Of a stretch of DNA of 64,000 nucleotides, positions 13,346 through 49,940 are shown piece by piece. The notes beneath the pieces were generated by a model, which saw only the letters and a list, made by a program, of their open reading frames with translations, ran no database searches and was not told the origin of the DNA. Position 1 is the first letter of the stretch. The number at the start of each line of letters is the position of its first letter. The translations under genes and the position numbers were made by a program. The stretch is from Bolinopsis microptera (Eukaryota > Ctenophora > Tentaculata > Lobata > Bolinopsidae): positions 19,680,103 to 19,744,102 of the forward strand of contig NC_087072.1 of assembly GCF_026151205.1 (NCBI RefSeq), given 5' to 3'.

Positions 13346-15430
13346 TCATTTTTTCTCTACAGACTCCTGCTTCTTAACGCCAGAATCCTTCTTCTTCTCA
13401 TATTGTTTCTTCTTATTCTCCTCCTTTGCCCACGATCCCAGGAAGTTCAGTTTCACGTCAGTCTTGAAGCTGTTTCGAACCTGTTCCACGAGCCCTTCAA
13501 CATCATCGATAGAATCATCATTACTGTCAACAACCTGCCTATCGAAGGGGAAGCCCATTGGTCTCATATCAGGATACATGGACTTCTCTCCTCTCTGTCC
13601 ACAGTAAGATACCGCACCGGCCTGCATCGGTTCTTGGGGATTAACTCCATCTTTAGTCCAGTCAGTGACCAGGACGTATAAGGTTCCCTTCATACCGTGC
13701 TTTGTTCCTTTTGGTATGAGCAAGTTCAAGGGCCAGCCACAGCAGTTACCGTGGGACATGTTATCTTTACCAGCTTCAATTTCCTCGACCGTCAACTGTG
13801 CTGTGTTGACCACGGAAGACTTGTTGTTTCGTTGTTTGATGTCGAAGATCTCGCTCTCATTTCCAGCCTCAACTGTGATTACAAATCTGTCCAGTTCAAC
13901 GAACATACTCCTCCAGTTCTCCAGAGATTCGTCACGAGTTTCTGGGGCCAGGAAAATCCTGATGCAAACCAAGACGTCTGCCTTGTTCTTGTTCTTCAGA
14001 GCTATCTTGTAGCTGAATGGAATGTGGTCCAAGAAGTCCTTCTTCTTGGTGGTAACCTTCTGTTGTGGATCCACATTGAATACAGAGTACTCCTTAGTTT
14101 CGGAGTAGGTGTAGAAGTTGTTCTTTTTGTCAAGAGGCTTGTCAACATTCTTCTTATGGTATTCTTCTGGCTGTAGCTCCACTTCAAATGACTCAATCTC
14201 AATGCCTGGGAACTCTATGTCTTTTTTGGTGTGGGGTTTCATATTTCTTCTGTGATCTTCAAAAAGAAGATCGACAAACTTGTGCCATCGATAAAAGACG
14301 GGGTCCCTTGGTGCTGTTTGGTCCCAGTTCATTGGGCCAGGTGATATTTGGTACTTTCCTTTGGGATCGTTCAAATTGGCAATAACTTGGTGGCCCTTGT
14401 TGTTGATTTCTCCATAAAGATTCTTGTTTATGGACCCTGCGTTTGCAAGAATGGTGTTTCCGAGGTTGTTCATGTCGATGGGAATCTTCACTTCATCCCT
14501 GTTGTAAAGAGAACCTCGAGCAATGCCGTCTTGGAGCCTTTCCTTGTGTCGTCCCATCTCTTCATGGATTGCTCTGGGGTCTGGGTTACCATCAGGCTTA
14601 ACTACGTACATGTCGGCAGGTCTGAAGGAACACAACATCATTCTAGGATTGAATCCTTCAGTCAGAGGTCTGTCCCATCCATAACCAGGGCCGTAGGGCT
14701 GAACTCGGTCATAACCCTGAGCCAATCTTTCAAAGTCGTACCTAGCCAACATTTGCTGGTGCATGTAACCGAAGAGCTCACCCTGTCGGTCTCTGGGAGA
14801 GTTTGGTGGGTATGGGTAGTTCAAATGCCAACTGTAGTTGTGTTCCAGCAGTCCAATGTCTTCTCTCCACCAAGCAAGATCTCTTTCTTTATCGAACTTG
14901 CCTTTACCTTGTTGTCCATCTTCTGATCTCATGGGCCCAGCTAATAGTGAGTCTACAGCCTGTTTCTGGCCATTCATACCTTCAAATATTTCATCTTGGG
15001 TGAAGTAAGCAACAGGCAAGGTTTGTCTTGATGGAGGAAGCGATGCTTCCTTGGTTTCGGGGTGCCTTGCAAATGTCAAACGCACCAGATGTTCAATGTA
15101 CGGGCTTTTCGGGTATGCAGTTCTCAGATACTTGAGTGCTTTGAGCATGGTTTCCTTAGGTTTCCTAGACAACTGTACAGCAGCATCGTGGGCTTTGCGG
15201 ACGTGTTTTTCATTGAAAACACTAAAAGGAGAAATATCCTGTATCTCCAGACTTTGAACGGTTATGTTGTTCAGTCCTCCTTTCAATGCGTTGTGAGCTT
15301 TTGGGTCGAACAGCAGGATATCCAAGACTTCCTTGTTGAGCTGCTTGAAGGCCTGAGAATGCTCTGCTGTGTGATGGCAGTGCTCACAGTCGCAGTTCAG
15401 CAACTCCTTCCCCTTTATCTCCGTAGACAT
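13346..15430 (-). CDS. Arthropod-type hemocyanin/prophenoloxidase-family protein 1
   Basis: One coding exon of 694 codons with the full three-domain layout: helical N domain (about 30-140), copper-site M domain (about 175-400) and Ig-like C domain (about 410-660). Family landmarks include WWRED (187-191), RQGELF-YMHQQMLARYDFERL (215-236), a GH...NDP stretch (346-355), PRDPVFYRWHKF (374-385) and CGWPLNLLIPKG in the C domain. By eye alignment to HHxHxHLVYP, the first CuA ligand is Asn198 and the first CuB ligand is Asn343. His202, His224, His347 and His383 remain. Four of six ligands are not expected to hold a normal type-3 dicopper centre, so oxygen transport or phenoloxidase activity is doubtful; a hexamerin-like storage or structural role is an inference. 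No signal peptide is visible, as in prophenoloxidases. The tail is Lys-rich. An acceptor (GATTCTTACAG) 6 bases before the ATG suggests a 5'UTR intron. Confidence 0.9.
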   Translation of the reverse strand: MSTEIKGKELLNCDCEHCHHTAEHSQAFKQLNKEVLDILLFDPKAHNALKGGLNNITVQSLEIQDISPFSVFNEKHVRKAHDAAVQLSRKPKETMLKALKYLRTAYPKSPYIEHLVRLTFARHPETKEASLPPSRQTLPVAYFTQDEIFEGMNGQKQAVDSLLAGPMRSEDGQQGKGKFDKERDLAWWREDIGLLEHNYSWHLNYPYPPNSPRDRQGELFGYMHQQMLARYDFERLAQGYDRVQPYGPGYGWDRPLTEGFNPRMMLCSFRPADMYVVKPDGNPDPRAIHEEMGRHKERLQDGIARGSLYNRDEVKIPIDMNNLGNTILANAGSINKNLYGEINNKGHQVIANLNDPKGKYQISPGPMNWDQTAPRDPVFYRWHKFVDLLFEDHRRNMKPHTKKDIEFPGIEIESFEVELQPEEYHKKNVDKPLDKKNNFYTYSETKEYSVFNVDPQQKVTTKKKDFLDHIPFSYKIALKNKNKADVLVCIRIFLAPETRDESLENWRSMFVELDRFVITVEAGNESEIFDIKQRNNKSSVVNTAQLTVEEIEAGKDNMSHGNCCGWPLNLLIPKGTKHGMKGTLYVLVTDWTKDGVNPQEPMQAGAVSYCGQRGEKSMYPDMRPMGFPFDRQVVDSNDDSIDDVEGLVEQVRNSFKTDVKLNFLGSWAKEENKKKQYEKKKDSGVKKQESVEKK

Positions 15431-15460
15431 TCTGAGCTGTAAGAATCACGATTAATATCA
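15431..15460 (-). promoter_or_regulatory. Probable 5'UTR-intron acceptor of hemocyanin-family gene 1
   Basis: On the minus strand a pyrimidine-containing GTGATTCTTACAG lies just before CTCAGAATG. The paralogue has TTTGTATATCACAG before TTCGCCATG at the matching place. A shared 5'UTR intron ending immediately before the start codon is inferred. Confidence 0.5.
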
Positions 15461-15547
15461 TCCAGGGTTTAGTTTAACGATGAGTCATAACAGTCAGGGT
15501 AAACAAATACGAGATTTATGAGTTATGGGCTAAATGGGATATGGTTA

Positions 15548-16324
15548 TCACAGTGCTGGCAAGTTTTTCAGGCATTAAGACTCACCGAAAGTAGTTCAGC
15601 AGGCATATTTTAAGTTCAAAACATTCTAATTCAATGTCAAAGAGGGAAGAAATAAAAAATAGTTATGTGGAAGTTTTTAAGAAATTTGCGCAAAATACGC
15701 GCCAGCACCCAAAATCGCCATATTCAGGTGCCTTAAAACCATGTTAAAATTGAGTTAAAGATTTGAAATTTTGCAGGGTGTCTAGATGTTGAATGTTGAC
15801 CAAATCAACTGTAAAAAAAGTTTCATGTTTCAGGAGTATTGGGAAGTGGGTTTTCTGGAACCCCTGATTTACAACAGATTGTCGTGAAGTATATACATAT
15901 ATCACAATGCTGGCAAGCATTACCGTTGACATTATATTCACAATACTATTTACCCCTATACTAATATTATATATTATAATACTATTTATATCCCCTTTAT
16001 TGTTTTTCAGGCATTAAGACTCATCGAAAGTAGTTCAGCAGGTATATTTAAGTTCAAAACATTCTAATTCAATGTCAAAGATGGCAGAAATAAGAAATAG
16101 TTATGTGGAGGCTTTTAAGAAATTTGCGCAAAATACGCGCTAGCACTGTTATACGAAATTTTGTAAAAAACCCAAAATCGCCATATTCAGGAGCCATAAA
16201 AATCATGTTTAAAATGAGTTAGAGATCTGAAATTTAGCAGGGCGTCTAGACGTTGACCAAATCGATTCTAAAAAAATTCAAGTTTCAGGAGTATCGGGAA
16301 GTGGGGTTTCTGGAAGTTGAAAAT
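15548..16324. repeat. Two diverged direct copies of a roughly 320-bp repeat
   Basis: The segment from about 15548 (CACAGTGCTGGCAAG, then CAGGCATTAAGACTCACCGAAAGTAG) recurs from about 15900 with an AT-rich insertion after TGCTGGCAAG. Both continue through TTTGCGCAAAATACGCGC and CCATATTCAGG to GTCTAGA. A fragment of the same family is near 28000-28140. The pair lies in the upstream or 5'UTR-intron region of hemocyanin-family gene 1. Confidence 0.8.
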
Positions 16325-17027
16325 CAAAAAGTTGCACACGTGGGGACACGCACAAATTGATATAAAATTAAAATTGCTAAAATCACTGAAAATTGCTATT
16401 TTCACGATTTTCTCAACTTTGGAGTCCCGTGATAATGTAATTGAAATCTTCTAATTGAAATCTTTTGAAACTTTGTATGTTTATCATACTATATATAAAA
16501 TACCAATATGCAAAAATATACGTTGATTCAATATCAAATGCGCACGCAACGTCCGCTCAAAGTTTGCACGTGCGAAAGGTGAGAATTTTGCTCATTCGAG
16601 ATGTCGATTAGATTCTGCTTTCCCACGACAGTTAAATGGCATTATGTATGGATTTATCGCCAACTTGAATGAGTATAAAGTGGCATATTCAGTCAGTGAT
16701 TCTCAGATATGCTTATCTAAACACAAGGAAATGTTTTCAAAGGTAAAATTTCGAAATTGTTGAAATTACCTGAAATTACCTTATTAATGAAGTTATCACT
16801 TTACATTTCGACTTCGCAAAGTACCCTGACATTAAAGAGGTCTGATCGTCATCTTCTTACAGCGTTCGATGTCCGTGTGAAGGTAGAATGGTAACATGCT
16901 CTGGATCAGGCAGAGGTCGAGTGTTATCGGGATTACTTCTGTAGTACTAGTAGTTATACGGAAATACTAAGGTATTTCCGTAGTAGTCCCATGACTTAAC
17001 CCTGACATTAATCAAAAAGAGATGATA

Positions 17028-17193
17028 TTTGACCAAAACCCATAATAGGGTAGAGTGTACCGCTGCCAGTATCTCTCTTTCCCAAACAAAAGTAAATGAT
17101 ATTAATTTGAATGACCGTCTGCAAATACTAAATGATATCGAGAATGAAATCGGTCGCGGTCCACTCTACCCAATTATGGGTTTTGGTCAAAAT
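17028..17193. mobile_element. MITE with about 30-bp inverted repeats
   Basis: The left arm starts ATTTGACCAAAACCCATAAT. The right arm ends with its near-perfect reverse complement, ATTATGGGTTTTGGTCAAAA. The two arms also share GGGTAGAGTG. The roughly 165-bp interior has no gene. Confidence 0.75.
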
Positions 17194-17699
17194 TCAAATA
17201 GAATCAATAAAGAATAATTAATATCGTATTAGTTACTCTTCATGTAAGGACTGAAAACAATCGAAATCAAACAAAAAACCGACACGTGGATGATTGTAAC
17301 CGTGCATAAGTTTTATAGTCACACAAAAATTTGACCATGCAAAATTTTCAACATTGTATGTTGTTTGATTTTCTCAATTTCCGCAAAAGCTACAAAATGA
17401 AACACATTCTCAAGTAACAAATTGTCGAGCGTGAATAAACGCTACCTTAACAAAACTATCAACTCTTAAAATGACATGAACTTGATCGGAGAATCTTTTA
17501 GATTCTTCTCTCTCGTGTGCAAAATAAATATATTTTCGCAGCGAGTAAAGCATTCTGCTACTTTGAAGAAATTGTCACGGGCGACAAAATCTATTTTGAG
17601 CTTGCTGCGAGTTTTCTGCTCAATAGGTTTAAACAGGAAAGAGCTTGTAAGATGCAAATTCCGAAATATCCAAGCGACCCGAGTAAAATCTGTACCACG

Positions 17700-17850
17700 G
17701 TTGGATAATTGAAATTATCACGTGACATAATATTATCAAGCAGGATATGCCAGCACAATCATAATAGCATGATTTGTTAAAAGATTCAGCGGTGCAAAGT
17801 CGAAAACAATCATTCAGCTAAGGCAACAGTTAAATCTTACAGCATGAGAT
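17700..17850 (-). promoter_or_regulatory. Conserved upstream block of hemocyanin-family gene 1
   Basis: Read on the minus strand, this shares an ordered set of words with 26940-27125, upstream of the paralogue: AAGATTT, TTTGCAC, TGCTATTAT, GAT(T/C)GTGCTGGC-ATCC-GC, then a CACGTGA/CACGTGAC E-box-like site and a GGTTGG-like word on the complementary side. It is about 2.3 kb from this gene's ATG, with repeats and a MITE between. A promoter or enhancer role is inferred only from the conserved order. Confidence 0.45.
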
Positions 17851-18032
17851 GAACGTAAGTTTTCCTCCGATGGCTGATGAATTCAGTGCGACAAAATCAG
17901 TAATCAGGTACACTCGTATAAAACGACCGCCGCGTTTACTAAGTTACTAAGACATTACTCTTGAATTGTGGCATACTCTACCCGACATGTCGCATTCAAA
18001 GTTACCACATTAATACTTACAATAATATTTTA

Positions 18033-18228
18033 AAAGGGCCTATGTCAAACTTAAATCAATTATACCAATTAGTCAAAAAGAGCCAAGAACATTTTTATAT
18101 TGTAGAACAGTCAATCTTTCCATTTAAGATGCATAGAAATCAAATTCAAATGCTTATCCTAGATCAAATTTCGAGAAATCGGTTTTTATGCATTATCTCA
18201 AAACAACTTTTTTTGACATAGGCCCTTT
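18033..18228. mobile_element. MITE with 17-bp inverted repeats
   Basis: AAAGGGCCTATGTCAAA at 18033-18049 is matched by TTTGACATAGGCCCTTT at 18212-18228. The 196-bp element has no coding capacity. Confidence 0.75.
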
Positions 18229-18449
18229 CTATATATAGGTGACGATATGTTAAGTTAGATAATTAAAGTGGATTGGATTTGGAGGTGGTTCATGAACTAG
18301 TTTTTTAGCACCGGCCTCTATTATATTTATGAGACAAAATCAGATACAGAGCGCTGGGCTGCTACGGCTATAATGTACGGACTGCGGAGGTCCTTAGCCC
18401 ACAAAAGTCGATTTAAGGTTACCGACACAACGACCTTACAAAAGATTTT

Positions 18450-18700
18450 TCATTTTTGAGTCCCACTATAAGATGACCTTTGTGGCTGACCAACGTTTCC
18501 AAATATTTGTACGTGTCTTACTCCTAAATTGTTAAAGTCTTAAGGCTACATTTTGCCACTTTTTACCAGCTTTTGTTTATATATTTAGTTGTGGACATCG
18601 TAGAATGCTGTGGATTCATCGGGGGTGTTTATCTTATGAATAAAAACTTTTCTTGTTAAAATTTCCACATCAGATAATCACTTAATTAACCTAATCACAA
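18450..18700. repeat. Diverged arm of the 3219-6948 fold-back family
   Basis: This contains TTTTGAGTCCCA, GGCTGACCAACGTTTCCAAA, TCTTAAGG and CCACTTTTTACCA in the same order as the palindrome arm. A second, longer diverged copy is at about 21255-21990. Confidence 0.7.
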
Positions 18701-18979
18701 AAAATGTAAATGATTTTGATAGTTTGATAAGATCAATACAAGAAAAAATGTACATTTCAATAAAAAATTCTTGAGGTCCTCTAGATTAGTAAATCGAGCA
18801 ACCATAATTAATGCTGGCAAGAACATTCAATATTTGTTGTTTCATTAATATTGTTTGTAGTCGGCGAGGTTGCATAAAACAATGTAATAGGATTAGCAAT
18901 CCGTCGTAGGAGTACTAGAAAGCCCGGATTTGTGATTGAATTATATATTCAAATTTCGTATGTGATACTCTTAAATCCC

Positions 18980-19200
18980 TTCGTCATAATGCGGATACCT
19001 TGCAATATCGTTTTTTGTACATCTTTAGTGGAACCATTCTGAACCAAGATCATTTAGGTACGCAAGTTGAATCCTTAGATCTGATCCTCAGGGGAAAATG
19101 TTTTAATTACCCTGAGGCGCGTATATTTGATATTTGCATCTTTACTCCTGAAGGCCATAGAGACTTCATTTTAAACTTATAAAAAGTACTAGAAGTAAAA
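18980..19200. repeat. Copy of the 40310-41600 repeat family
   Basis: The order ACCATTCTGAACCAAGATCAT, TTAGGTACGCA, CCTCAGG, then TCTGAAGGCCATAGAGACTT matches the tandem repeats at 40310-41600. There is no coding content. Confidence 0.6.
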
Positions 19201-21254
19201 ATATCAATTCAACCTTATTTAAATACAATTTCTGTAGTAGGTAGTGGTACTGAAGCTACATAAGCTCCATGAAATTGATGATATTTGGGCCAAATTTGAT
19301 TGTTTAACAAATACGTGCAATGTGTTTTTTTTTCTTCAAAGAAATGGACATATTTTGAACGGTAATGACTATAAGTATAATGACTACCACTTCAACCGGT
19401 AGAATCGAAGTGCGGGTCTGTTGTCTGCTTGGCAAGGGAGTCGTTTCAAAAGTTGATCCGCTTTCAGAAGTCAGGAAGTCGCTTTTTATAATTTGATTAT
19501 CCCCGCGGCTTCAGAGATTTTACACCAAGATCTGATGTACTTCTATTTACAGTTCTGATCATTAGAGGAATGCGCAGACCGAGATCCCCAGAATATTCAT
19601 TTCAAATGTTCTACTAGTAGGGTCTATAGGGTAAGGTCTACTAGTAGGGTCTAACTCTAAGCTTGACGTTGGCGCTCACTGCCGGGTGACATGTCTGAGA
19701 GTCTCATTGATGTCAGTACCGAGGATGATCATAAAGTTTTTATCAAGCTCCTATCTGTTCGCATATATTTCTTGATTATGAGCGGAGACTGAGAGGGTGT
19801 GCACGAACTTCCGTGTTTTGACACAAATTACATTATAACATTATATAATTATATGTTCATGATATAACATTAAGTTGCAGAAATAATTTTACAATCTATT
19901 TCAGTAGATTTATTAATATTTTCTATGATGACTAAATATTATTGAATACTAGAAGTAGAAGGCAACCATAATTGATTTCAGACCAGACCTCCTTTTTAAA
20001 TTTAGTCCGCTAGTATCTTATATCTAATCAGTCACCCATGGTGCACTATAAACTTGTACGGCTTCGCATGCACCCTCTCCGCCGGCTCGGCTACGATTAG
20101 ATGATGGGTACGATTAGAAAATTGACTAGAAAATAGAAATATACCATGGCTTATATTATTATTATTAATATTAAATCTGTGGCTTGTCTGCCGCGTATGA
20201 GGTTTTCTATTGCATGTTCGATCTCAGAATTAAAATATTGGTTTACCGTAGCTCGCAGACAGATCAGCTAATTTCAATTCCGTATGGGGTAAAAATTTAT
20301 AGAATTATTAGATCGATAGGCTGATGAAATAATTCACTATCTTTTGCTTGCAGTGCCTCACTAACAAATACAGATCAGCACCCAAAGTTGTTACCCGCAT
20401 TGGAGCACAGCTTCAATATGTTTAAATATATTTGCTTTAGAGCACCCTTTATAATTATATTATGACTTTATGACCACTGTTTGACCCATAGATAGAAGTA
20501 TAACGATGTTCTCTTGTGTACACATTTCTAATGTTAACGAATACTAATTTAATCATTTGATAAGTTCTTTGAGCATTAAATGGTTTAAAACGACTCGTTT
20601 CCAATTTTTATTTCATACACAATACAGGTGATCACTAATTCTTTCCTTTTTGAAATCTGTGTAATCTTCAAAACGTCGAGCACTCTATTTTTAGGTTCAA
20701 ATAACTAATTAGGAAATCACAATGGACTTCATTCCACCTGATCTAATGATTTCCCTAATTTTTCCACCATTTGTCTCGTCTTACTGCCTTTTGGAGAATC
20801 CTACAATTGTTTACGTGATTTATAGACAGGTAATGAATTGACAGTGTGCAACTTTGATGTCCAGATTATTGTTCAATTTAGTAATACAATACCAAATTCA
20901 AAAGCTCATCGAATTCATGTTTTAGTCGTATTATAATTAATGCATGAAAATAAGTTCTGTTTACATTTATCGTTGAAACATTTTGATAATTTATTGTTTC
21001 TTTTAAATTTTTAATTCGTTTAATCCGTATGTCATAGTTTAACCTTTTTGGGCATTTGCACCGAGAGCAATGATCTTCACAATAATAATGTATAGTCCGA
21101 TAGTTTCACTTGCATCCTATAATATACATTCATAATATAATTTATGGTCCGAAATTAGGTGTTTTCGGAAAAATACCTTTTATAGTCAGGGGAAAAGTGT
21201 CATTCCGTTGGATTTGAAGGGTAATAAGGATTTATCAACGGAATATGGAAGTTA
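19201..21254. other. Noncoding stretch
   Basis: AT-rich sequence. A short duplicated word, ACTAGTAGGGTCTA, occurs twice near 19612-19665. No gene or clear transposon end is seen. Confidence 0.4.
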
Positions 21255-21990
21255 GAACCCCTACGAACATAATTAGACTTGTCGCCAATTTTTTATCTCA
21301 CGGCAACACCACTTTTTACTACTTTCTTACCACCTTTCTGATACGCCAAATATATAGAGTTGTGAACGTCGTAGAAGGTTGCAAATTAATCGAGGATATT
21401 TATCTTATCAAAGAGAAAAACTTGTTGTAAAAATTTGCACGTTGGACAATCAGCTAATTGGATAATTACCAATTAGCCAATTACCAAAAAAGTGAGAATT
21501 TTTATTGGCTCAAAATGATCGAAATTGTTTGAAACACGGATAAATGTAGTTTTTAGAAAAACTTAGAAAATGTTTCAGTTTAATTTTTTTCGAAAATTCG
21601 AAAATATTTCTTTCCGCCAAAAGTGATCGAATTACATGAAACGTGGAGAAAAATGATTTGCAGAAAAACTTTTTCGCTTCGGGGAAACAAAAATCACCAA
21701 TATTTGAAGTTAGGGTTTAGTAAATCTCGGCGGAAAGGGCTGAGTTTCAAAATTAATTACAGTACAGCCTTATCAAATTCCACATAAAGAAACAGCACAA
21801 AACTAAAAGGACCGTTATTAAGATTGATCCGATTTTACCTGCTGTACTATCATTTTCTTGATTTCAATGATTAAAACCCCTCTATACTATATACCGTCAA
21901 TCTTGCCAATCTATACCGGGTACCTGAATGTACCGGGCCTCTTCTTTGCCTCTATAATTAGACCGGGTTGTGCAAGAAATGTTCCCACAG
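21255..21990. repeat. Second diverged arm of the fold-back family
   Basis: This follows the left arm of 3219-6948 in order: CCACTTTTTACTAC, ACCACCTTTCT, GTTGTGAAC-TCGTAGAAGGTTGC, AATTGGATAATTA-CAATTAG, TTGGCTCAAAATGATCG-AAT-G, TGAAAC-CGGA and CCGGGCCTCTTCTTTGCCTC. Only one arm is present. Confidence 0.7.
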
Positions 21991-22597
21991 GGGTTTCTCT
22001 CATCTCTTGAAATTAGTTTATTAATCTATGATCTAGGTTTTCACACTTCATCTTGATTCCGGCACTCCATATCTGTAACGATTAAGTCTTGCATTTTGGA
22101 AGTGTTAATCCACTGTCAGACTTAACAGAGGTTGGAAGTAATCAAATGGAATGTTATGAAAATGAAATTAGGGGAAGGGTGTATGAGACAGCATAAAATC
22201 ACATACAGTAGATATGGTAGCAAGGTCGCTCCCTCGTAATCTAATCTCTAAATCTAAACTCCATCCTAACTCAGCTTCTCCGCTCTCGGGTACTTTTTGA
22301 TTTGTCCATGTCATGCCTATGAAAGCACAGTGCACGGACGTGGAGGGCTGGTTGCTATGACTATGTATGAGCTCGATAATGCGATAGAATTATATTTAAC
22401 GTTCGAGAGGCCATTGTAGTATTCTACTTCTAGATGAACCATTGAGTGATAATGTTTAGGATTGCAGTGCTCAGTTCTAGTTTGCTCAATTTAGTCGTGC
22501 CAAGTTTGCTTTTCGAACTTTGTTCTCTGTATCCTTATTATTAATTTTTATAAATCTAGTTCTGATATCGATATTCAATATCACATATTCAGGTAAA

Positions 22598-23555
22598 ATG
22601 AAACAGGCTGGCATGCTTTTAACAGCTTTCTTCCTGGTCTTCTTAGCTCACGCTGCATTAACAGGTTGGTGACAATATTTTTGTACTATCCATAAACATG
22701 CCAATACTACGAATGAAGGATTCCAAACCGTCGTAAAGTTAGAGTTAGGGTTAGTAGTTAGTGTTCGATTTAGAGTTACAATTACAGTGACGGTTAGAGT
22801 GATGGTTAGGGTTAGGATTATGGTCAGGGTTAGCGTAAACAGTAAAGGTTCTGGGGCAGGATGTCGTGAACTGTGCTGCACGTAAGGGGAAATGTAGATT
22901 GTAGATTTATCAGAGTGGGTTTTTTGGACGTGTGATATTGTTCAGAACTATATGGCCGGCACCAGGGAATGAAATTTCCGGGGCGGCTAAGATGTACTTT
23001 ATTTACTGCCAAAGTTAATTTTAAGGAGGTTTTAGTTGCTTTAATCTAACAAAATGATCTCTTTCAGAGGAGTACCCGACATGCGACTGTTGGACTCCCG
23101 AGTGTGGATACTGTTCTAAACTGGAGTGTACGGTCAAGCAAACCTCAAACCTCGGTATCACTGTCAGCTCCAAACTCAGGTGGAAGAAGCAAAACACTAT
23201 TGTTCTGTTTGATGATGCTGGAGCGGAGGTTGGGAGGTTCCGGTTGAGCCTCAGAGGGATCTCCCTATCGGGATGTTCGAGTTGCCACACCCCGGGACCT
23301 CTGAAGAGAGCGAGAACTAGGGGAGGGCCCACTCAGTGGGCGTTTTCTCTGGGGGGAGGTTCCATTCAGATAGCAATCAAGGGACAGGTTCTGTACAGTC
23401 AAAAAATGGGCGGCCGATGTGCGGAGAAGTATGGTAAAGCTACGAGGTTTGCCTTCTACAACATGGGTTGTGAGAACACCTTCTCATATGTAGAAAGTGA
23501 GATGGAGTTAGGAGCACTGGTATCAGCAGACTGCGGAGGAGCTTGCTCTAAATAG
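22598..23555 (+). CDS. Small secreted cysteine-rich protein, two exons
   Basis: Exon 1 (22598-22664) encodes a clear signal peptide: MKQ, then a hydrophobic core (LLTAFFLVFLAHAAL) ending near an Ala/Thr cleavage region. Exon 2 (23068-23555, stop TAG) joins in phase 1, with a ctttcag acceptor and a GTTGGT donor. The product is 184 residues. The mature part has 11 cysteines: five clustered at the start (CDCWTPECGYC, then EC), a GCSSC pair, and four near the C-terminus ending DCGGAC. The middle alternates polar and hydrophobic residues like a beta-sandwich. No transmembrane segment follows, so secretion to the extracellular space is likely. I do not recognise the family and assign no function. 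It sits between the two hemocyanin-family genes, on the opposite strand. Its intron carries degenerate TTAGGG-like repeats. Confidence 0.75.
22735..22840 (+). repeat. Degenerate TTAGGG-like tract in an intron
   Basis: Repeated GTTAGGGTTAG, GGTTAGAG and GGTTAGGATTA words make an imperfect telomere-like hexamer tract inside the intron of the cysteine-rich gene. Confidence 0.6.
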
Positions 23556-24334
23556 TTTAAATAGTTATTGATATGCTAACTTTGTTATCTAATACATATT
23601 TAGACTATTGTCAATTTAGTTTGACATCTTTAGGTCACTATAAGTATAAATAATATAAATATCCCTGACCATTTTAATCTCAACGGAATTGAACGTCTTG
23701 AGTAGGTAAATAACAAGTACTTTGAGGTGGCAATAGCTTGGTGTTTGGTAATCTGATTTTGATATCACTGATGAGGGATGATGTAGCAAACATATTTTAT
23801 GTTATTATGAATATTATGTGCATTGATAGGATTTTAATTAAAAAAGATATATTGCATTTCATAGACATTCATTATTCAGTATTCTTGTAAACAATTTAAA
23901 TACAGAGGGCCATTATAATCATTATATCAAAGAAAATTACAATTATATATTCAATGACAAGGTGAAATCTAAATATATAGATGGCCAGAACCCGGGTTCT
24001 GCACAAAATAGGCGATTCAAATTTTGCCCAAACTTCATTCGTAAATTAAATATACAAATCATAATGCAAAATACGTGGAAATTTAAATGTGTACATTCGT
24101 ATTCTTAACTGACATATTATATCTCTTATTTGATTTATTCTAAATCGCACAAATACTTCACAACATGGCCATAAGTTTAATGATTAAATTGTTGAAAAAT
24201 CCGTGCATTCAGATTTTGGAAAAAGTTCATCTAAAAAAGGTCGAACAGTGAACATTGACCGATATTCATACTGTTCTCTTCTGAAATTTCAAATTATGTC
24301 TCTACATGTTTTTCTACGTGTTCATTGTTGGTTT
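23556..24334. other. Convergent intergenic spacer
   Basis: AT-rich region between the 3' ends of the cysteine-rich gene and hemocyanin-family gene 2. A palindrome, AGAACCCGGGTTCT, occurs near 23988-24001. No gene is seen. Confidence 0.4.
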
Positions 24335-26449
24335 CTATTCCTTCTTTTCATCCTTCTTCTCTTTCTTGTCGTCATTCTTTTCTTTCTTGTCGTCCTTCTG
24401 TTTCTTATTCTCATCGTCCCACGCTCCTAGGAAGGTAATGTTGACATCTGTCTTGCAGCTGTTATCCATATTATCTACAAGAGTTTCAAGATCCCTCATT
24501 GGCTTGCCTTTCTTGTCGACGATAAGCCTGTCGAATGGGTAACCCATTGGCCTTTGGTCGGGGTATTTTGATTTCCTGTCTTTCAGGCCGCAGTATGACC
24601 AGCTTCCATGAAGGTGTTCTTGTGGGTTCTCACCATCTTGCATCCAGTCAGAAGCAAGAACGAAAATTTGCCCTCTCATGCCCTGTTTGGTTCCACGAGG
24701 AATGAGAAGGTTAAGTGGCCATCCACAGCCACAGTTGTTCTGGGTGGCACTGTTTGACTTGCCATCCTTGATGTCCTCGAACTTTGCTCGTCGAGCTGCA
24801 ATAACAGAGGAGTCTTTGTCACTTCGGTTAATCTCCTTAGTTTCCCCTCCCTTGAAGGACTCCACGAACTTGTCTAGTTCCACGAACATGTTTCTCCAGT
24901 CATCTAGGGGTTCATCAGTTTCTGGAACAAGGAACACCCTGAAGCACACCATGACATCTCCCCTGTTCTTGTTCTTTGCTTTCATGTTAAAGCTGTATGG
25001 GATATGGTCCATGGACTGTGTCTTCACTTTAATGGCCTCCTGATCTTTGTTTGTGTTATAAACATCATATTTCTTTCCCTCCCTGTACGTGTAGAAGTGG
25101 TTCTTTGTGTCGAGTGGCTTATCAACCTTCTTCTTGTGGTAATCTTCTGGCTCTAATTTTACATTCAGATTTTCAAGTTCTACACCTGAGAACTGCAAAT
25201 CCTTTGCTTTATGGGGATCCATAGTAAATCTGTGCTCTTCAAAGAGTTGATCAATGAACTTGTGCCATCTGTAGAACACGGGATCTCTGGGAGAAGTCTG
25301 GTCCTCGTGCATTGGTCCGGGAGCCATGTTGTACATTCCTGAGGGATCATTTGCATTCGCAATTATCAGATGTCCGTGGTTGTGGACATTGCCGTAGAGG
25401 GTCTTGTTGATAGAACCTTCGTTAGCCAATATGGTGTTTCCAAGGTTGTTCATGGTCATCTTTACCTTAACCTCGTTCTTGTCGTACAGGAATCCTCGTG
25501 CGATGGCAAATTGGATCCTATCTTTGAACTTCTCTAGCTCTTCAGTAGACGTTTTTGCGAAGGAGTAATTCTCAGACCCTAAACTCAAGTTGGCTGGTCT
25601 AGCAGAGGAGAATTTCAATTTTGGGTTGAATCCTTCCTTAAGGGGTTTATTCCACCCATATCCAGGACCGTAGGGCACAACACGTGGCAAGCCTCTTGAA
25701 AGCCTCTCAAAGTCGTACCTAGCAAGCATCTGTTGGTGCATGTATGCAAACAGCTCGCCTTGGCGATCCCTAGGAGGGTTTGGTGGGTATGGGTAAGACA
25801 AATGCCAGTTGTAAAAGTGGTTCAAGAGACCAAGGTCCTCTCTCCACCAAGAAAGACACCTTTCTTTGTCAAACTTGGCATTGGTTGGTAAGATGTTCAT
25901 TTTCCTGTGATGTTTTTTGTTGGTTCCCATAACTACCATGGCATCCTCTCCTTTCTTAGTCAGACCCCACATCATGCTGTTCTCTCTGAAGTATGAATAA
26001 GGCATGGTCTGCTCTGGAGGAGGGAGGAGACATTCACGGGTTCTGGGGTGCTCCATGAATGTCACTCTGCTGAGATGTTCGATGTAAGGACTGCTCGGGT
26101 AGCATGTCCTCAGATAGGCAAAGGCATCAATCACCTGCTCGATGGGTTGTCTGGACATCTGGACAGCGATTTCATGGGCCTCTCCGACATGATCCTCCTG
26201 GAAAACACTGAAGTGAGGGATGTCGTCAATCTCAAATTCTTTCACGAACTCATTCACGTCTTTTTCATCCTTGCATCGAAACCTTTCACCTTTGTGGCCT
26301 TTGTCGAAAGATTTGTGTTTTGGGTCATGCAAGAATGCTCGTAAGATCTGTTTGTTCAGTTCCTTGGAGGCATTGGATTGCTTATGCTGATGACAGCTGT
26401 TATAGTTGTCCTTCAAGCCCCCTTTCTTAGCGTCTACAGCAGTAGCCAT
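24335..26449 (-). CDS. Arthropod-type hemocyanin/prophenoloxidase-family protein 2
   Basis: One coding exon of 704 codons, clearly paralogous to the gene at 13346-15430 along its whole length. It shows WWREDLGLL (201-209), the RDRQGELFAYMHQQMLARYDFERL segment (about 227-250), VHNHGH (355-360), PRDPVFYRWHKF (388-399) and GWPLNLLIPRG. By eye alignment, the first CuA histidine is replaced by Phe212. His216 and His238 remain in CuA. CuB looks complete: His356, His360, His396. A site with one intact and one broken copper centre would not bind dioxygen in the usual way; activity is uncertain and a storage or structural role is only inferred. There is no signal peptide. The C-terminus is an extreme Lys/Asp/Glu tail. 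An acceptor (TATATCACAG) 6 bases before the ATG suggests the same 5'UTR intron as the paralogue. Its N-terminal domain has an extra His/Lys-rich insertion. Confidence 0.9.
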   Translation of the reverse strand: MATAVDAKKGGLKDNYNSCHQHKQSNASKELNKQILRAFLHDPKHKSFDKGHKGERFRCKDEKDVNEFVKEFEIDDIPHFSVFQEDHVGEAHEIAVQMSRQPIEQVIDAFAYLRTCYPSSPYIEHLSRVTFMEHPRTRECLLPPPEQTMPYSYFRENSMMWGLTKKGEDAMVVMGTNKKHHRKMNILPTNAKFDKERCLSWWREDLGLLNHFYNWHLSYPYPPNPPRDRQGELFAYMHQQMLARYDFERLSRGLPRVVPYGPGYGWNKPLKEGFNPKLKFSSARPANLSLGSENYSFAKTSTEELEKFKDRIQFAIARGFLYDKNEVKVKMTMNNLGNTILANEGSINKTLYGNVHNHGHLIIANANDPSGMYNMAPGPMHEDQTSPRDPVFYRWHKFIDQLFEEHRFTMDPHKAKDLQFSGVELENLNVKLEPEDYHKKKVDKPLDTKNHFYTYREGKKYDVYNTNKDQEAIKVKTQSMDHIPYSFNMKAKNKNRGDVMVCFRVFLVPETDEPLDDWRNMFVELDKFVESFKGGETKEINRSDKDSSVIAARRAKFEDIKDGKSNSATQNNCGCGWPLNLLIPRGTKQGMRGQIFVLASDWMQDGENPQEHLHGSWSYCGLKDRKSKYPDQRPMGYPFDRLIVDKKGKPMRDLETLVDNMDNSCKTDVNITFLGAWDDENKKQKDDKKEKNDDKKEKKDEKKE

Positions 26450-41930: not shown

Positions 41931-44900
41931 TTACGTTCTTTTCTTTTTCAAATAATTTATTCTTTTTCGTAGAATAAGTTTTATTTTTCTTCTCTCTTCT
42001 ACTCCCTGACTGATCTTTTCGACCTGAAATGCAATCGTAATATTTACTAATAGTAATAAAGAACAACTAATGTTCATTGTTATATTCAAATCAAAACCTT
42101 GCACACTTTACTTGTCTATGTAATAAGGGATTATTCACATTTAAAAGGCAACTTTTGGTACCAAATTGATTGCAATCGGAGGAAAAAATTCTGTGCCCGG
42201 GCCGCGCTTGTCGCTTATTACACTGAATATACCTTAGTTCAAGTTTATAACTTACTACTTTTATGATCGAGTCAATATGGACGTAAGTCAGATGACCTGA
42301 CGGCTTGGTGGAACCCTTTCCCTCTTTGTAGTCTCCAGGCCAGGAGAGGAGATTAGGATCGATGATATCGTCATCAACTAGTATAGTAATACATTTGTTG
42401 ACTAGGACATTCACCGACCCTGTCCCCACTCCTGCCTCAAGCCGCCAGGTCATCAGAGTATCAGCCATGTCCGGCTGATAGTCCCTTATCAGCCGTTTTC
42501 TTATCAGGGGGCCGGGGGGTCCAGAGACACGGGGACCAGCTGCTGAAGATATAAATCAGTCACCACAAGTATCAATAACCAATAAAAATAAAGTTTCATA
42601 AAATGTGCCCAATTATAAAGGTGATGAGTCAAACAATTGCCTTGGGATATCTTATATGTTAAATAATTAACATACCTGCAACATTAACGTGAAAACGGCA
42701 AAGCTTATCTATTGTCTTCTTGAGTTCTTTGACTTCGTTCTCTGATGGGTTGCAATAAATGTTTAGCACAAAAAAAAATAGCAGAGGGTACCAAGAAATT
42801 TGAAATACATCTTGATTTAGCTGATATGCAACATTTTATTGAAGCTCCCTCTCATCACATTAAACAATTTGCACTTTTCAGATAAAATGTATGTTGTACC
42901 AATTTTAAAACCTTGTAAAAGAATATAAACGAAGATCCCTCGAAGTTTAATTTTTTTGTAGCTGTAGCAAATTATTAATTATATCCCCGCAAACTGCAAA
43001 GGGTACCTACCTATGAAATATAATATCGAAAAGTCCAGAAGTCGGTATCGAGAAGTTATTGACTAAAGCAGTCGGGTATTGAAGTCAAGCTGCACTGTAT
43101 CCAAGACTATGGGACCTGTCTGGAAGAAATTTCTGAGAAATGAATTGTAGCTAACCAGGCCAGACTCTATAGTGTTGACAATTTTGGAAGAATATGCCTA
43201 AGTAATCTGTTTGCACTGAGAATGAGACGTAAGCAGAGCGTGAAACAGCTGCTGCTTTATTATAATATTTTCCGGGACTTATATGCACTAAAACTCGTGG
43301 ACACTGAGAGCTGATAATTTGCAGATATTTCCCGCTAGAGAAGCGAAGTTATTATCAGCACAGACTGCGAGTCACCTCAGGCTTCTTTTCGGGCCACGCG
43401 TTCCCTACAGCAAGCTGTCAAGAATTATCACCCGTAGCCCTCAAAAGCCTGTATTATAATAAGACGTAAGAGCACTACTTTGTATTTATAGAACTTAAAA
43501 ATCATAAACGGGATCGGAACTGACTTTCCCTCGCCCTCGTCAGTAAATGGAAATGGGTGAATAGTGTTTTATAAATGAGAATGGATAAATGATAGTTGAT
43601 AAACGAGAGTTGATATTTACTAGAATTGGTAAATGAAGGTTAAAAAGACTGACTTTTCACTCCTAATAAATCCCGCTTTAATAAGGATAGCCGAATTATT
43701 CAAGAATTTTAACGAATCAAATGATCTTATTCAAAATTTAGCCGAAGGTAGTTACTACCTTACTCGGGAACATTATAGCGGGTTAATTTATGACTGGGAA
43801 AATTAATGACGGGAAAAATATGGCGGAATTTTCCAAAACCCACCACTTTATCCCCTAGTCATAATATTCCCGAGTAGTACGTTATTCAGCTATTCATTTC
43901 CATTAGAATCTGCCTTCACTGAGTCTATTCAGAAACAATCAGAAATTTGAATAAAAGAACTATCAAATCATGAGACTCAAAAACACTACACGAATCCACC
44001 AGATTCCCGCGTAAGGTATGCAATTATCTATGGAATCGGATTCATCGATGGATTAACAGTCATAAATGGCGATGTGCCTTCAAATATGTTAAGAGCGTCG
44101 TGTTATAGCTGCAGAGTAGGTCACACCGTGCTGGTGACTTGAATACTGTTCCTATATAATGTCTATAATGTCTATAATACCTAGTATAGTAAGTTTTTAT
44201 CTTATACAAAAATTACCGTCACAACCGAAGTTACAGCCGGTTAAATTGTACTGAAAAATGAACTCAACGTTTAAAAAAACAAAAATCTATCAAAATGTCG
44301 CTGCAATATTTATTGCATGTGCACACGTGCGCCTTTCCATCACATCGTAACACACTTAGGAATCAGGGCAGTCTACAAGAAGCCCGACTGGTCCATGGAC
44401 CACTGGTCTATGGACTGGACCACTCTAGGTGGTCCATGGACCAGTGGTCCATGGATCACCTTATCACTGAATAAGTGGTCCATGGACCACTTTACCAAGG
44501 TCCATGGTATCAGCAAGCACTTTAGCTTCCATTATCATATGATCCAATCATACGGTAGACTTCTTCGCTAAGATTGCAAGATGTCAGTATTAACTACGAA
44601 AAACGTCGCAGAGATATATAAGATGAATTGTGGTACACAGCCATCGTCGTTTTCGATATACACGACAGATACTTGTACACCACTACTGTGTTTTCAATAT
44701 GAGCCACTCACTACACAACGAAATCCATCGGATAACAAATACAGAGGAGCATGCAAGGGATTTCCTCTTTCAACGTGGTCCTCTGAAGTCCTCTCTTTCC
44801 TGTCCTGGCTGCTCTTCTGCTATGAACCTTGTACCCTGCTCCTCTAAGAAGTCCTCAGACCTTCTCATCTGGCGGTGTTCACCCTGCTCACGGTTTAGGA

Positions 44901-47900
44901 ACATACGAACGGATAGTGTACTCTCTGGACAGAAGCTCACCTTCTCACTATTCCTACAGCTGGTTTTCTACCTCAGCATCAAATCCCTTGTAAATGTAGC
45001 TATCTCTCAGCTCATAGGAGTATCAGAGAACACCATCAGTGACTGGAAGACCCTGAAACATACAAGAGTAGCTGACTTTCTGGTATCCAATCCCTCTCCT
45101 CTCGGTGGACCTGGTGTTGTCGTGGAGATGGATGAGGCCAAGTTCGGAAAACGCAAGTACAATAAAGGAGCTTACAGAGAAGGGCAGTGGGTGCTTGGAG
45201 CTGTAGATCGGAGCAACGGTAACTGTTTCCTACTACCCTGTCCGAACAACAGCAGAGGCGCACCCACACTACTCCCTCTGATTCAACGCTGGATCCTCCC
45301 TGGTTCTGTTGTCTATACTGACGAGTGGGGAGCCTATAACAGCCTAACTACCGCTGGCTACACTCATCACACCGTCAACCACTCGATCCAGTTCGTGGAC
45401 CCGGCAACTGGCGTTCATACTAACACTCAGGGAGGACTTTGGGCTCATGTGAAAAAATCTGTTGTAGGAAAAACTGACTTGGAACTAGCTCTTGTTGATT
45501 TTCATGTTTCGTAGAAGATTCCATGCCACACTGAGCAGATTCTCGAAAGATTAGAGAGTGGTGACGATCCACTCAACCTGCTACCTAGAGACCCTTCTCC
45601 TCTACCTACCTCCCCAACTGTCGACTCTCCCCTCAACCTCATCGAGATACCGCCTCCTCAACCACTACCAGAGAGCTCGGCAGGACCTATCAGACGGAGG
45701 AATACCACACGGAGCAACATGGAAGCAGCAATCCATCAACAATATCCTCTTGTTTTGGAGATGGTGAAGAGTGGGACGAGCGCAAGGCAGACTATTCAGC
45801 AGATTCAGATGCCCAGATCAACGTTCTACAAGTGGCGTTTTGTTGCAGAAATGAAGCTTGTCGACTCCTCACACTATCATCACCTAGCTGATCAGTTCAA
45901 GGGAACCAAGCTGTGTGATCAATGCAAATACTGTTTATTTGAGGACTCGGCCTTTCTCACAAAGGCAGAGGAGATGAGGAAGAGCTCCGACCTCCTCCCT
46001 CTATCTATGTAAATTGTATGTTATTTACTTTTGTAATACTTATTATACATATTGCAATCATGAAGATGCCAATTTCAATTGATAATAAAAAATTAGATAT
46101 AATCTTCATGAGTTGACTTATGGTGGTACATGGACCACTGTACCTTGGTGAAGTGGTCCATGGACCAGTAGTCCATGGACCAGTAGTCCATGGACCAGTA
46201 GTCCATGGACCAGTCGGGCTTCTTGGAGAATGCCGGAATCAGGATATAAGAGACAGAAGCAAATAGGAAATTTGTAGCAGTAGGGAGTTAAATTAAGGAA
46301 AGTTAGATAGTAGAAGATCTCACAACGCAAGGTAGAATTTATAAACTGTAGAATTAATAAATGGGAACTTGTATAAATTATGATAATTGATAGTTGATGA
46401 ATGAGAGTTTGATAACAAATCAACTGTTACCTCAATTCTCTAGTCGTTTTAGACGCAGAATCATCCACACTACCTGACTTCTTCTGATGTCAAGTCCAAA
46501 CTATAATATACTCTGGAGTTAAACTATGAAAGTTTGAACAACTAACTCGAGCTACTAGAGAAAAAACATTGTGGGTTTAAAGATTTATATACAGATTAAA
46601 GATTTATACCGTCATATAATAATAATTAGTCAATTAATTAATTTGTAGAGCATGAATATTGCCAAATCGTTACACACTCAGGATTCAGTATACGAGATAC
46701 AGAAGTGAATATCCAATTGACTTTCCTGAAAAGGCAGGGTGTTAAATTACGGAAAGTAGAAGATCTCACAACGTGCAAGGTAGATAAACAAAATAGAGAA
46801 TTTATGAACTAGCGTTGATAAATGAGAGTTGATAAATGAGAGTTGATAAATGAGAGTTGATAAATGAGAGTTGATAAATTAGAGTTGATAAATGAGAGTT
46901 GATAAATGAGAGTTGATAAATTAGAGTTGATAAATGAGAGTTGATAAATGAGAGTTGACAAATGAGAGTTGATAAATGAGAGTTGATAAATTAGAGTTGA
47001 TAAATGAGAGTTGACAAATGAGAGTTGATAAATGAGAGTTGATAAATTAGAGTTGATAAATGAGAGTTGATAAATGAAAGTTGACAAATGAGAATTGATA
47101 AATGATAAATGAGAATTGATAAAATATGAGAGTTGATAAATTACCTATGTTCCTCCAATTCTGGACGGGGGCGGGGGCGGGAGCTTCGTACACCTCAGTA
47201 CGTTGGGAGGCCTGACAAAATATTTTCAAATTATCACAACTACTCCATCTTTATTATACATATTATTGAAATACATTATCTGACAAAAGATTACGGCAAA
47301 CAGATTATCAGAGCTACATTTAAATCGGCTGTATTTTAGGTTGTGACGGATATTTGTTGATGCTATAAAAACTTGCTAACAAAAATACTATTAGCTTCCT
47401 GATCCCTTGTCCACGGATTTTCTAGTTATATTATATAATATTGAAGTAATAATTCGTTTCCAGTGATTAAAGTCACTTCATAGACAACCATATCAAAACC
47501 ATTTACCGGAGGCAAGATGACTTCTTGGACTGTTTGGAACAAATCGTCATCAAGGTCGTCAATAATAGACCTATTTCCCAATGTGGTCAACTGCGTGGAC
47601 TCTTGTGACAGATGGTCTTCTATCTGATTGAAAAGATTATTTATGTAAATGATAATTTCTCCGATAAATCAACACTAGTTATTTTAATATTTTCTCATCT
47701 CTTTGAAAGGGAAAATATAACATAATGATCACAATTAACAATCAATGCAATACCATAACAAATAAAATTTCAGTCAATCGAAATGAAAATTATTTCTTAA
47801 CAAAATGTTTCCTATGGATGAATGAAAGAATTGTTTAGTGTAAAACTGAAATTAAAATTGATCAAAAAGAATAAACGAAATCAAACCTCCATCCTGTACG

Positions 47901-48978: not shown

Positions 48979-49656
48979 TCAGTTGATGCATGGTAGAACA
49001 GTGGGTCTTTGTGCGATGTTGTAGCAGGGACTCCACTTCTTGTTTTCTCTTGCTAACCAGATTGCATAGGAACATCTGAGAGCAACCAAAGCCGCCTCTT
49101 GGAACACTGCTTTCTTTACTCTCTTTGTAACACCAAAGTAGTTTAGTAGGGCTGGTAAGGTATGATGCCAGAAGCCTCTACACCCAACCTCTACCGTAAA
49201 AAGCTGAGCTTTCCACCCACTGCCATGCAGCCCAGGAATAAGCTCTCTGTTGTAACGTGCTTGTTTACGTTCTGCTTGGTCACTAAAGTTACTCTCGTCA
49301 CGACTTGAAGTGCTGCTAGAACTAAAAGACGGCTTGTAACCCAAGTCGCTTTGATTTTTCAGGATATCCATTAGTAGGTTGAAAACTATTAAGAACAGTA
49401 CAACCGATAGAGGGTCGCCCTGAAAAAGACCTAACATATAAAAGAACCAGTTTGTTTTCCAGTCCTTTGTCACCACTCTCACAATCAGCTCATCATAGTA
49501 CTTAAACATATATTCTATGAGCCAGTTTGGGAACTTATAATGTCTTAGAGCATATATTATCAAGTTGTGGGGAACCCGGCCGTAGGCGTTCATTAGGTCC
49601 ACCCAAACTGCAAAGATCTGTCGTCTATTAGATTTGGCATCCTTCAACTCTTCCAT
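48979..49656 (-). pseudogene. Reverse-transcriptase fragment (non-LTR-like), 3' part
   Basis: This open frame carries RT motif A in WVDLMNAYGRVPHNLI (catalytic Asp present) and motif B as LFQGDPLSVVLFLIVFNLLMD. The YxDD motif C and palm residues are missing. After DILKN the frame jumps to a Ser-rich region, then a C-terminal segment (RYNRELIPGLHGSGWKAQLF, TVEVGCRGF, SYAIWLAREN). The QKGF and GC-EHT words just upstream, in another frame, recall R2/NeSL-type or related RTs. Together with 49725-49940 it forms one frameshifted, internally deleted copy, lying between the minus-strand gene and the CACTA gene. Confidence 0.7.
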
Positions 49657-49724
49657 CAGAGCCTGAGTGTGCTCGAGGCAACCTGGTGTCTTACGCAGGA
49701 ATCCTTTCTGGATAGACGTGTCTA

Positions 49725-49940
49725 TTAGCTATTACTGACCATATACTCTAGCATTCTGTCCGCTAGTAATCCCATCTGCAACTTCCCACTAGTGTTTGTT
49801 TTAGTGATGTTTCTGAACTTACTAGGGTCATCTAAATCCTCAGTTTTTGCTATCAGAATGGCTTCACCTACTCGCCATTTCAGCGGGACTCTCTGGCTTT
49901 CCCATAGAGAATCCAGCAATTTGAATACTGCTTTCGCCAT
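49725..49940 (-). pseudogene. Reverse-transcriptase fragment, 5' part
   Basis: This frame encodes an RT N-terminal palm/finger piece: SQRVPLKWRVGEAILIAKTEDLDDPSKFRNIT and a K-x-lADRM helix. It ends in stops, and the continuing RT text (LIDTSIQKGFLRKTPGCLEH) resumes one frame over, upstream of 49656. A single-base frameshift therefore separates the two fragments. The copy starts at an arbitrary methionine and is dead. Confidence 0.65.

Follow-up and report, generated by a model that had tools for sequence, protein, structure and literature searches.

Two hemocyanin-family paralogues in the ctenophore Bolinopsis microptera lack copper ligands and the catalytic glutamate

Can a hemocyanin-type protein be maintained after residues that hold its copper have been replaced, and what might such a protein do? 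The question is raised by two neighbouring genes, g1 and g2, in a stretch of 64,000 nucleotides from the genome of Bolinopsis microptera (contig NC_087072.1, positions 19,680,103 to 19,744,102; hereafter the window). The host is a ctenophore and not an arthropod, and ctenophores have been described as the sister lineage to all other animals (passages of PMC11797021). In keeping with this, a glutamate-receptor gene of the genome finds its best PDB match in Mnemiopsis ML032222a (E 1e-120, the next molecule reaching 4e-71), and 22 homeodomains, from 24 of 111 matches, include no canonical Hox sequence by eye, which suggests a non-ParaHoxozoan. The arthropod RR cuticle domain (PF00379) and the tunicate marker GH6 gave no match in this genome, but none in the controls either, so these two results do not speak against either group; STING and COX1 likewise gave no match. 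The two genes, delimited by open reading frame and codon reading, are the following:

13346..15430, minus strand: g1, intronless hemocyanin-superfamily gene, 694 amino acids plus stop
24335..26449, minus strand: g2, intronless hemocyanin-superfamily gene, 704 amino acids plus stop

Both frames run from ATG to stop without interruption, the genes are separated by 8.9 kb, and the proteins are 52–54% identical. The Pfam profile Hemocyanin_M matches g1 with 148.7 bits (E 2.5e-43) and g2 with 173.6 bits (E 6.1e-51), and Hemocyanin_C matches them with 130.9 bits (E 6.9e-38) and 129.7 bits (E 1.5e-37), respectively, the curated cut-offs being 20.8 bits for the first profile and 26.4 bits for the second; the Pfam N domain of hemocyanin has no match at E 0.01 in either protein. 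The closest relatives in the PDB are chelicerate hemocyanins, followed by insect phenoloxidases, and hexamerins are far weaker, at 100 bits or less. The placeholder Phe and the CGWP motif are shared with the arthropod proteins, and these sequence characters identify g1 and g2 as members of the arthropod-type hemocyanin/prophenoloxidase superfamily. Between the two genes, the segment 22598-23552 probably encodes a small secreted protein with Cys residues in two exons, the first being signal-peptide-like and the second, which follows a CAG acceptor, having no Pfam match. Elsewhere in the window, a plus-strand open frame of 703 aa (55148-57256) has no Pfam match at E 0.01, and transposon pieces at 44627-45511 and 48982-49728 are recognized by Pfam as an IS1595-like DDE domain and a reverse transcriptase.

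An earlier note on this DNA had credited both proteins with the full three-domain frame. This stands for the middle and C-terminal domains of both, which Pfam scores, and for the N domain of g1, where the profile gives no score and the evidence comes from a predicted structure. An AlphaFold model of g1 built from a 22-row alignment (mean pLDDT 79, pTM 0.85; pLDDT 31 from the single sequence) superimposes through its residues 27-665 on residues 1-628 of Limulus hemocyanin with a VIA-align Z of 38.9 and 2.3 Å over 556 residues. The corresponding Z values are 33-34 for phenoloxidases, 26.6-29.1 for hexamerins, 26.8 for the fungal cyclopenase AsqI, and about 10 for bacterial tyrosinases, and Foldseek places the same families at the top. 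The three-domain fold, including the N domain, is predicted by this model to be kept in g1.

The copper ligands were mapped by MAFFT alignment with Limulus hemocyanin II, in which we take them to be His173, His177, His204, His324, His328, and His364. Opposite these residues, g1 carries Asn198, His202, His224, Asn343, His347, and His383, and g2 carries Phe212, His216, His238, His356, His360, and His396. By alignment and codon reading, the first ligand position of each copper site is as follows:

14837..14839, minus strand: g1 CuA1 position (Limulus His173), Asn198, codon AAC
14402..14404, minus strand: g1 CuB1 position (Limulus His324), Asn343, codon AAC
25814..25816, minus strand: g2 CuA1 position (Limulus His173), Phe212, codon TTT
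25382..25384, minus strand: g2 CuB1 position, His356 retained, codon CAC

Alignment and codons agree here with the residues that the earlier note had assigned, namely Asn198 and Phe212 at CuA1, Asn343 at CuB1 of g1, and a retained His356 at CuB1 of g2. Both copper sites of g1 are one ligand short, so neither triad is whole; in g2, CuA is one ligand short and the CuB triad (H356/H360/H396) is complete. Four of the six ligand histidines remain in g1 and five in g2, and neither protein has the full six of a functional type-3 copper protein. An additional histidine in g2, His358 (25376-25378), lies between the CuB ligands His356 and His360 (HNHGH), at a position occupied by Trp in the Limulus protein. 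The same note had allowed that the adjacent His197 of g1 or His211 of g2 might occupy the ligand position. This proves not to be the case, because the column containing these residues is itself invariant, being His in 24 of 24 reference sequences (defined below), one place ahead of the ligand and without a nearby gap, and because Asn198 and Phe212 retain the four-residue spacing to CuA2.

A further change, absent from the earlier note and found in the present analysis, concerns the catalytic glutamate, again located by alignment and codon reading:

14447..14449, minus strand: g1 catalytic-Glu position (Limulus Glu309, AgPPO8 Glu364), Leu328, codon CTT
25427..25429, minus strand: g2 catalytic-Glu position, Leu341, codon TTG

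In mosquito PPO8, the E364Q substitution has been shown to abolish about 89% of the diphenol oxidase activity and 93% of the hydroxylase activity (passages of PMC4700666). The column corresponding to Limulus Glu309 is residue 373 of the deposited PPO8 chain, and the offset of 9 between the two numberings was taken from the placeholder Phe, which is residue 108 in the deposited chain and 99 in the passages of PMC4700666; excerpts of PMC4092376 contained no passage on the catalytic glutamate. With Leu at this column, both g1 and g2 lack the glutamate expected of an active phenoloxidase. The column is Glu in 20 of 20 aligned bacterial rows, in all three PDB chains, and in five of the eight ctenophore loci (L003, L004, L005, L006, and L008); the remaining three have Leu (g1 and g2) and Gln (L002). 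In L002, all six histidines are present and the replacement of Glu by Gln (Q343) is the same change as E364Q of PPO8. Its codon, CAA, is a single base from the Glu codon GAA and a single base from a Leu codon, and Gln as an intermediate step from Glu to Leu is only a possibility.

How unusual such changes are can be judged across the superfamily. Arthropod-type hemocyanin/PPO relatives are encoded by 21 bacterial loci of several phyla (L037-L057), each with the CuA motif, although the search patterns sat at or beside CuA3 and could find only relatives that have it. Seventeen of the 21 align over both copper sites, and all 17 keep the six histidines, as do 3 of 3 arthropod chains; the other four (L046, L047, L055, and L053) also carry the HxxxH CuA motif, L053 having been omitted from alignment A2 and from the ligand and glutamate tally because its chosen frame covered its match poorly. 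One of these loci (L047:7-3474) encodes a Chloroflexi protein of 1156 aa in which a subtilase domain is joined to a hemocyanin-type domain. The 17 bacterial proteins, the three arthropod chains, and four ctenophore paralogues (L003, L004, L005, and L008) make up the 24 references. Among the 43 columns that are invariant in these references, g1 differs at three (N198 at CuA1, L328, and N343 at CuB1) and at no others, g2 at two (F212 at CuA1 and L341), and L002 at one (Q343). The probability that all changes fall by chance within the seven active-site columns is 0.003 for g1, 0.02 for g2, and 0.16 for L002, these values being uncorrected and the columns not independent. In a leave-one-out comparison of the 24 references, 17 show no change at an invariant column and 7 show one to four. 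Measured on these columns, the number of changes in g1 and g2 is ordinary and their placement in the active site is unusual; the changes are confined to the chemistry, with the scaffold residues retained.

It could be proposed that an asparagine, a water molecule, or a shifted histidine still supports a dicopper site, so that g1 and g2 would be altered but working type-3 copper proteins. Most of the ligand histidines do remain (5/6 in g2 and 4/6 in g1), and His358 of g2 lies near CuB. At CuA1, however, every one of the 24 references has His, the replacement in g2 is Phe, which cannot ligate copper, and the general base is gone too; an altered dicopper centre appears very improbable.

The remaining family members of the genome provide the immediate context. 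A Hemocyanin_M profile search found 8 loci, and a protein search gave 10 matches, the extra two being the second pieces of two broken genes (L003 and L006). Six frames are intact (g1, g2, L002, L004, L005, and L008). L003 is interrupted by a palindromic insert, and L006, which arose very recently as a copy of L004 (dS 0.004, dN 0.012), is interrupted by a stretch with an ORF judged by eye to be transposon-like. All six loci other than g1 and g2 keep the six histidines, and the full set of seven residues (six His and the Glu) is present in five of them, including the broken L003 and L006. L002 is 46% identical to g1 and 52% to g2. A separate tyrosinase-domain gene is found on contig 7 of the same genome. 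Each of the eight ctenophore members has one to three Cys within its first 20 residues, six of them in a CxC arrangement, and this motif is enlarged to CDCEHCHH in g1 (N-termini at window positions 15371-15430 for g1 and 26390-26449 for g2); metal handling and lipid attachment are guesses at its role.

The two broken family members make it reasonable to ask whether g1 and g2 are themselves decaying pseudogenes, a reading that is scarcely credible in view of their full-length frames, their retention of 40/43 (g1) and 41/43 (g2) invariant columns, and a saturated synonymous divergence combined with a low nonsynonymous one (pS 0.77 and pN 0.29 between g1 and g2). Among g1, g2, and L002, pS is 0.76-0.81, at saturation, and pN is 0.29-0.34; with synonymous sites saturated no dN/dS ratio is given, and the L004/L006 pair shows that the method reads young pairs. 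The distances of g1, g2, and L002 to six outgroup proteins are about equal, also for the middle domain alone, so relaxed or accelerated evolution of g1 and g2 is not seen against L002, which itself lacks the Glu and is not a fully active comparator. The pattern, as read from these divergences, is one of long constraint.

The position of the loss within the family was examined in trees. A large tree, which was built without the ligand and Glu columns from 27 of 31 aligned rows (L006, truncated, and L046, L047, and L055, cut ahead of the CuA motif, were dropped) and contains no hexamerin, unites the ctenophore genes in one clade (100/100) apart from the three arthropod chains, with g1, g2, and L002 as a clade inside it (100/100). 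The trees disagree on the branching order of these three. The grouping of g1 and g2 as sisters has supports of 83/86 and 75/72 in one pair of trees and 66/59 in another, whereas the large tree joins g2 and L002 (91/68), with the alternative grouping of g1 and g2 not rejected (AU p 0.32). A two-residue KS insertion is common to g1 and g2 and absent from L002, L003, L004, L005, and L008, and taken by itself favours the grouping of g1 with g2, though a bacterial row, L054, carries an insertion there too. L002, for its part, has four residues ahead of the catalytic Glu position that recur in the three arthropod chains and are missing from all the remaining ctenophore genes, g1 and g2 included, a stretch that likewise does not discriminate between the orders.

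A sister relationship between g1 and g2 would allow a single loss of CuA1 followed by drift, whereas with g2 and L002 as the sister pair two separate losses of CuA1 would be simplest. Under either order, the loss of CuA1 falls inside the ctenophore genes; surrounded as it is by paralogues of this group with intact copper sites, it very likely took place separately from the losses in hexamerins and cryptocyanins. The suggestion in the earlier note that a non-arthropod host would make this an independent branch is thereby supported, and so is its observation that the two genes have lost ligands to different degrees. Its description of them as successive stages meets with the conflict among the trees over g1, g2, and L002, and is best regarded as plausible. 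The loss is known from one ctenophore genome.

A storage or structural function, like that of insect hexamerins and crustacean cryptocyanins, has the attraction of precedent, since a comparable loss of ligands with retention of the fold is reported three times from arthropods (passages of PMC6034248), and the g1 model superimposes on hexamerins (Z 26.6-29.1). The composition of g1 and g2, however, shows no enrichment of the storage type: F+Y amounts to 7.9-8.9%, against 8.5-9.2% in L002, L004, L005, and L008, and Met to 2.9-3.7% in both sets. No N-terminal signal peptide is visible by eye in g1 or g2, and ctenophores have no hemolymph. Hexamerins and cryptocyanins, moreover, descend from arthropod hemocyanin, whereas g1, g2, and L002 form their 100/100 clade inside the ctenophore genes in the tree without hexamerins. 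This function seems distinctly unlikely for g1 and g2.

Another proposal makes g2, at least, a single-metal enzyme whose CuB triad would hold one Zn or Cu as a Lewis acid for a different reaction, by analogy with the fungal cyclopenases. g2 does have exactly one intact tri-His site, site B, formed by H356/H360/H396, and 41/43 invariant columns; precedent comes from AsqI, which retains site A alone and needs zinc, and from PngL, which retains site B alone, like g2 (passages of PMC6053404). The g1 model also aligns with AsqI (Z 26.8), although AsqI is remote in sequence, giving phmmer scores of 52 and 68 bits with g1 and g2, compared with 284 and 280 bits for the best hemocyanin. The proposal leaves g1 uncovered, as neither of its triads is whole, and for PngL itself its authors suggest, in the same passages of PMC6053404, that its action may depend much less on metal than on pre-organisation of the substrate. 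Among 10 window ORFs in the Pfam scan, including g1 and g2, none matched as a biosynthetic-enzyme neighbour, intron-containing genes being outside the scan. A single-metal enzyme is considered unlikely, though for g2 it is the leading alternative to the reading given next.

The reading preferred here, in which our confidence is evenly balanced, is that g1 and g2 are ancient ctenophore pseudoenzymes maintained for a scaffold or partner function. Their ancestor would have been a type-3 copper protein of the beta-subclass, phenoloxidase-like and with three domains, of which intact copies persist in the same genome. As the sequences show, CuA1 and the phenol-deprotonating Glu are replaced in both proteins and CuB1 in g1, the other tested invariant columns being retained. 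With these residues lost, neither protein should be able to hold a coupled dicopper centre, and we infer that neither carries O2 nor oxidizes phenols; the absence of dicopper oxidase and oxygen-carrier chemistry is held with good confidence, and g1 is likely copper-less. Selection would preserve the scaffold, and the likeliest role for the proteins would be that of non-catalytic partners or structural subunits, which might join copper-intact paralogues in mixed oligomers; this specific role we put forward tentatively and at somewhat short of even confidence. As a counterpoint, g2 keeps its CuB triad together with His358 and g1 keeps 4/6 ligands, whereas sites under no constraint at all ought to have lost more of them, so that selection may be maintaining some metal binding. 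In a more far-reaching version, which is doubtful, the enzyme was dismantled piecewise, the loss of the general base (as L002 would still show) being followed by that of CuA and finally of CuB, and what remained was remodelled into a conserved protein with no dicopper site, g2 possibly holding a single metal at CuB. If that is true, it would to our knowledge be the first such branch in animals outside arthropods, and all three stages persist in one genome.

Several known systems bear comparison with g1 and g2. Arthropod hemocyanins and prophenoloxidases (beta-subclass type-3 proteins) resemble them in the three-domain fold (g1 model), the placeholder Phe, CGWP, and 40-41 of 43 invariant columns, and differ in the CuA1 ligand and Glu that both have lost and in the CuB1 ligand lost from g1. 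With insect hexamerins, crustacean cryptocyanins, and the millipede protein CleHcBI2, they share the replacement of ligands on a retained hemocyanin fold, and CleHcBI2 is like g1 in having ligand changes in both sites; g1 and g2, in contrast, belong to another phylum, show no amino-acid enrichment, and lack a rate increase, which in CleHcBI2 is about 4.5-fold (passages of PMC6034248); their loss of the catalytic Glu may be a further difference. AsqI and PngL offer the same combination of a hemocyanin fold and one of two dismantled metal sites, g2 having the PngL pattern, whereas g1 has neither triad; in fungi, the loss of copper from this fold was accompanied by a switch to zinc (passages of PMC6053404). 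The nearest relative, Bolinopsis L002, belongs to the same 100/100 clade and is also without the catalytic Glu, but has its six His present and Gln, not Leu, at the Glu position.

A literature search that lay mostly outside the subscription literature found, among the matches listed, no paper on such copper-ligand-less hemocyanin relatives in ctenophores. A 2013 survey of type-3 copper proteins mentions ctenophores 0 times, the excerpts of PMC6485061 and PMC7771090, both of which contain "hemocyanin" and "ctenophor", report no such ctenophore proteins, and the words tyrosinase, phenoloxidase, and melanin have 0 occurrences in PMC11797021 and PMC10876535. The loss of copper on the hemocyanin fold is known already from arthropods and fungi; what appears to be new here is the ctenophore case, together with the loss of the catalytic Glu.

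A separate loss in comb jellies would mean that the hemocyanin scaffold has repeatedly been kept without its dicopper centre. Since the genome of g1 and g2 also contains L002, with its six ligands and the change of Glu to Gln published as inactivating, expression of a few proteins could directly test the sequence of steps by which the enzyme was dismantled.
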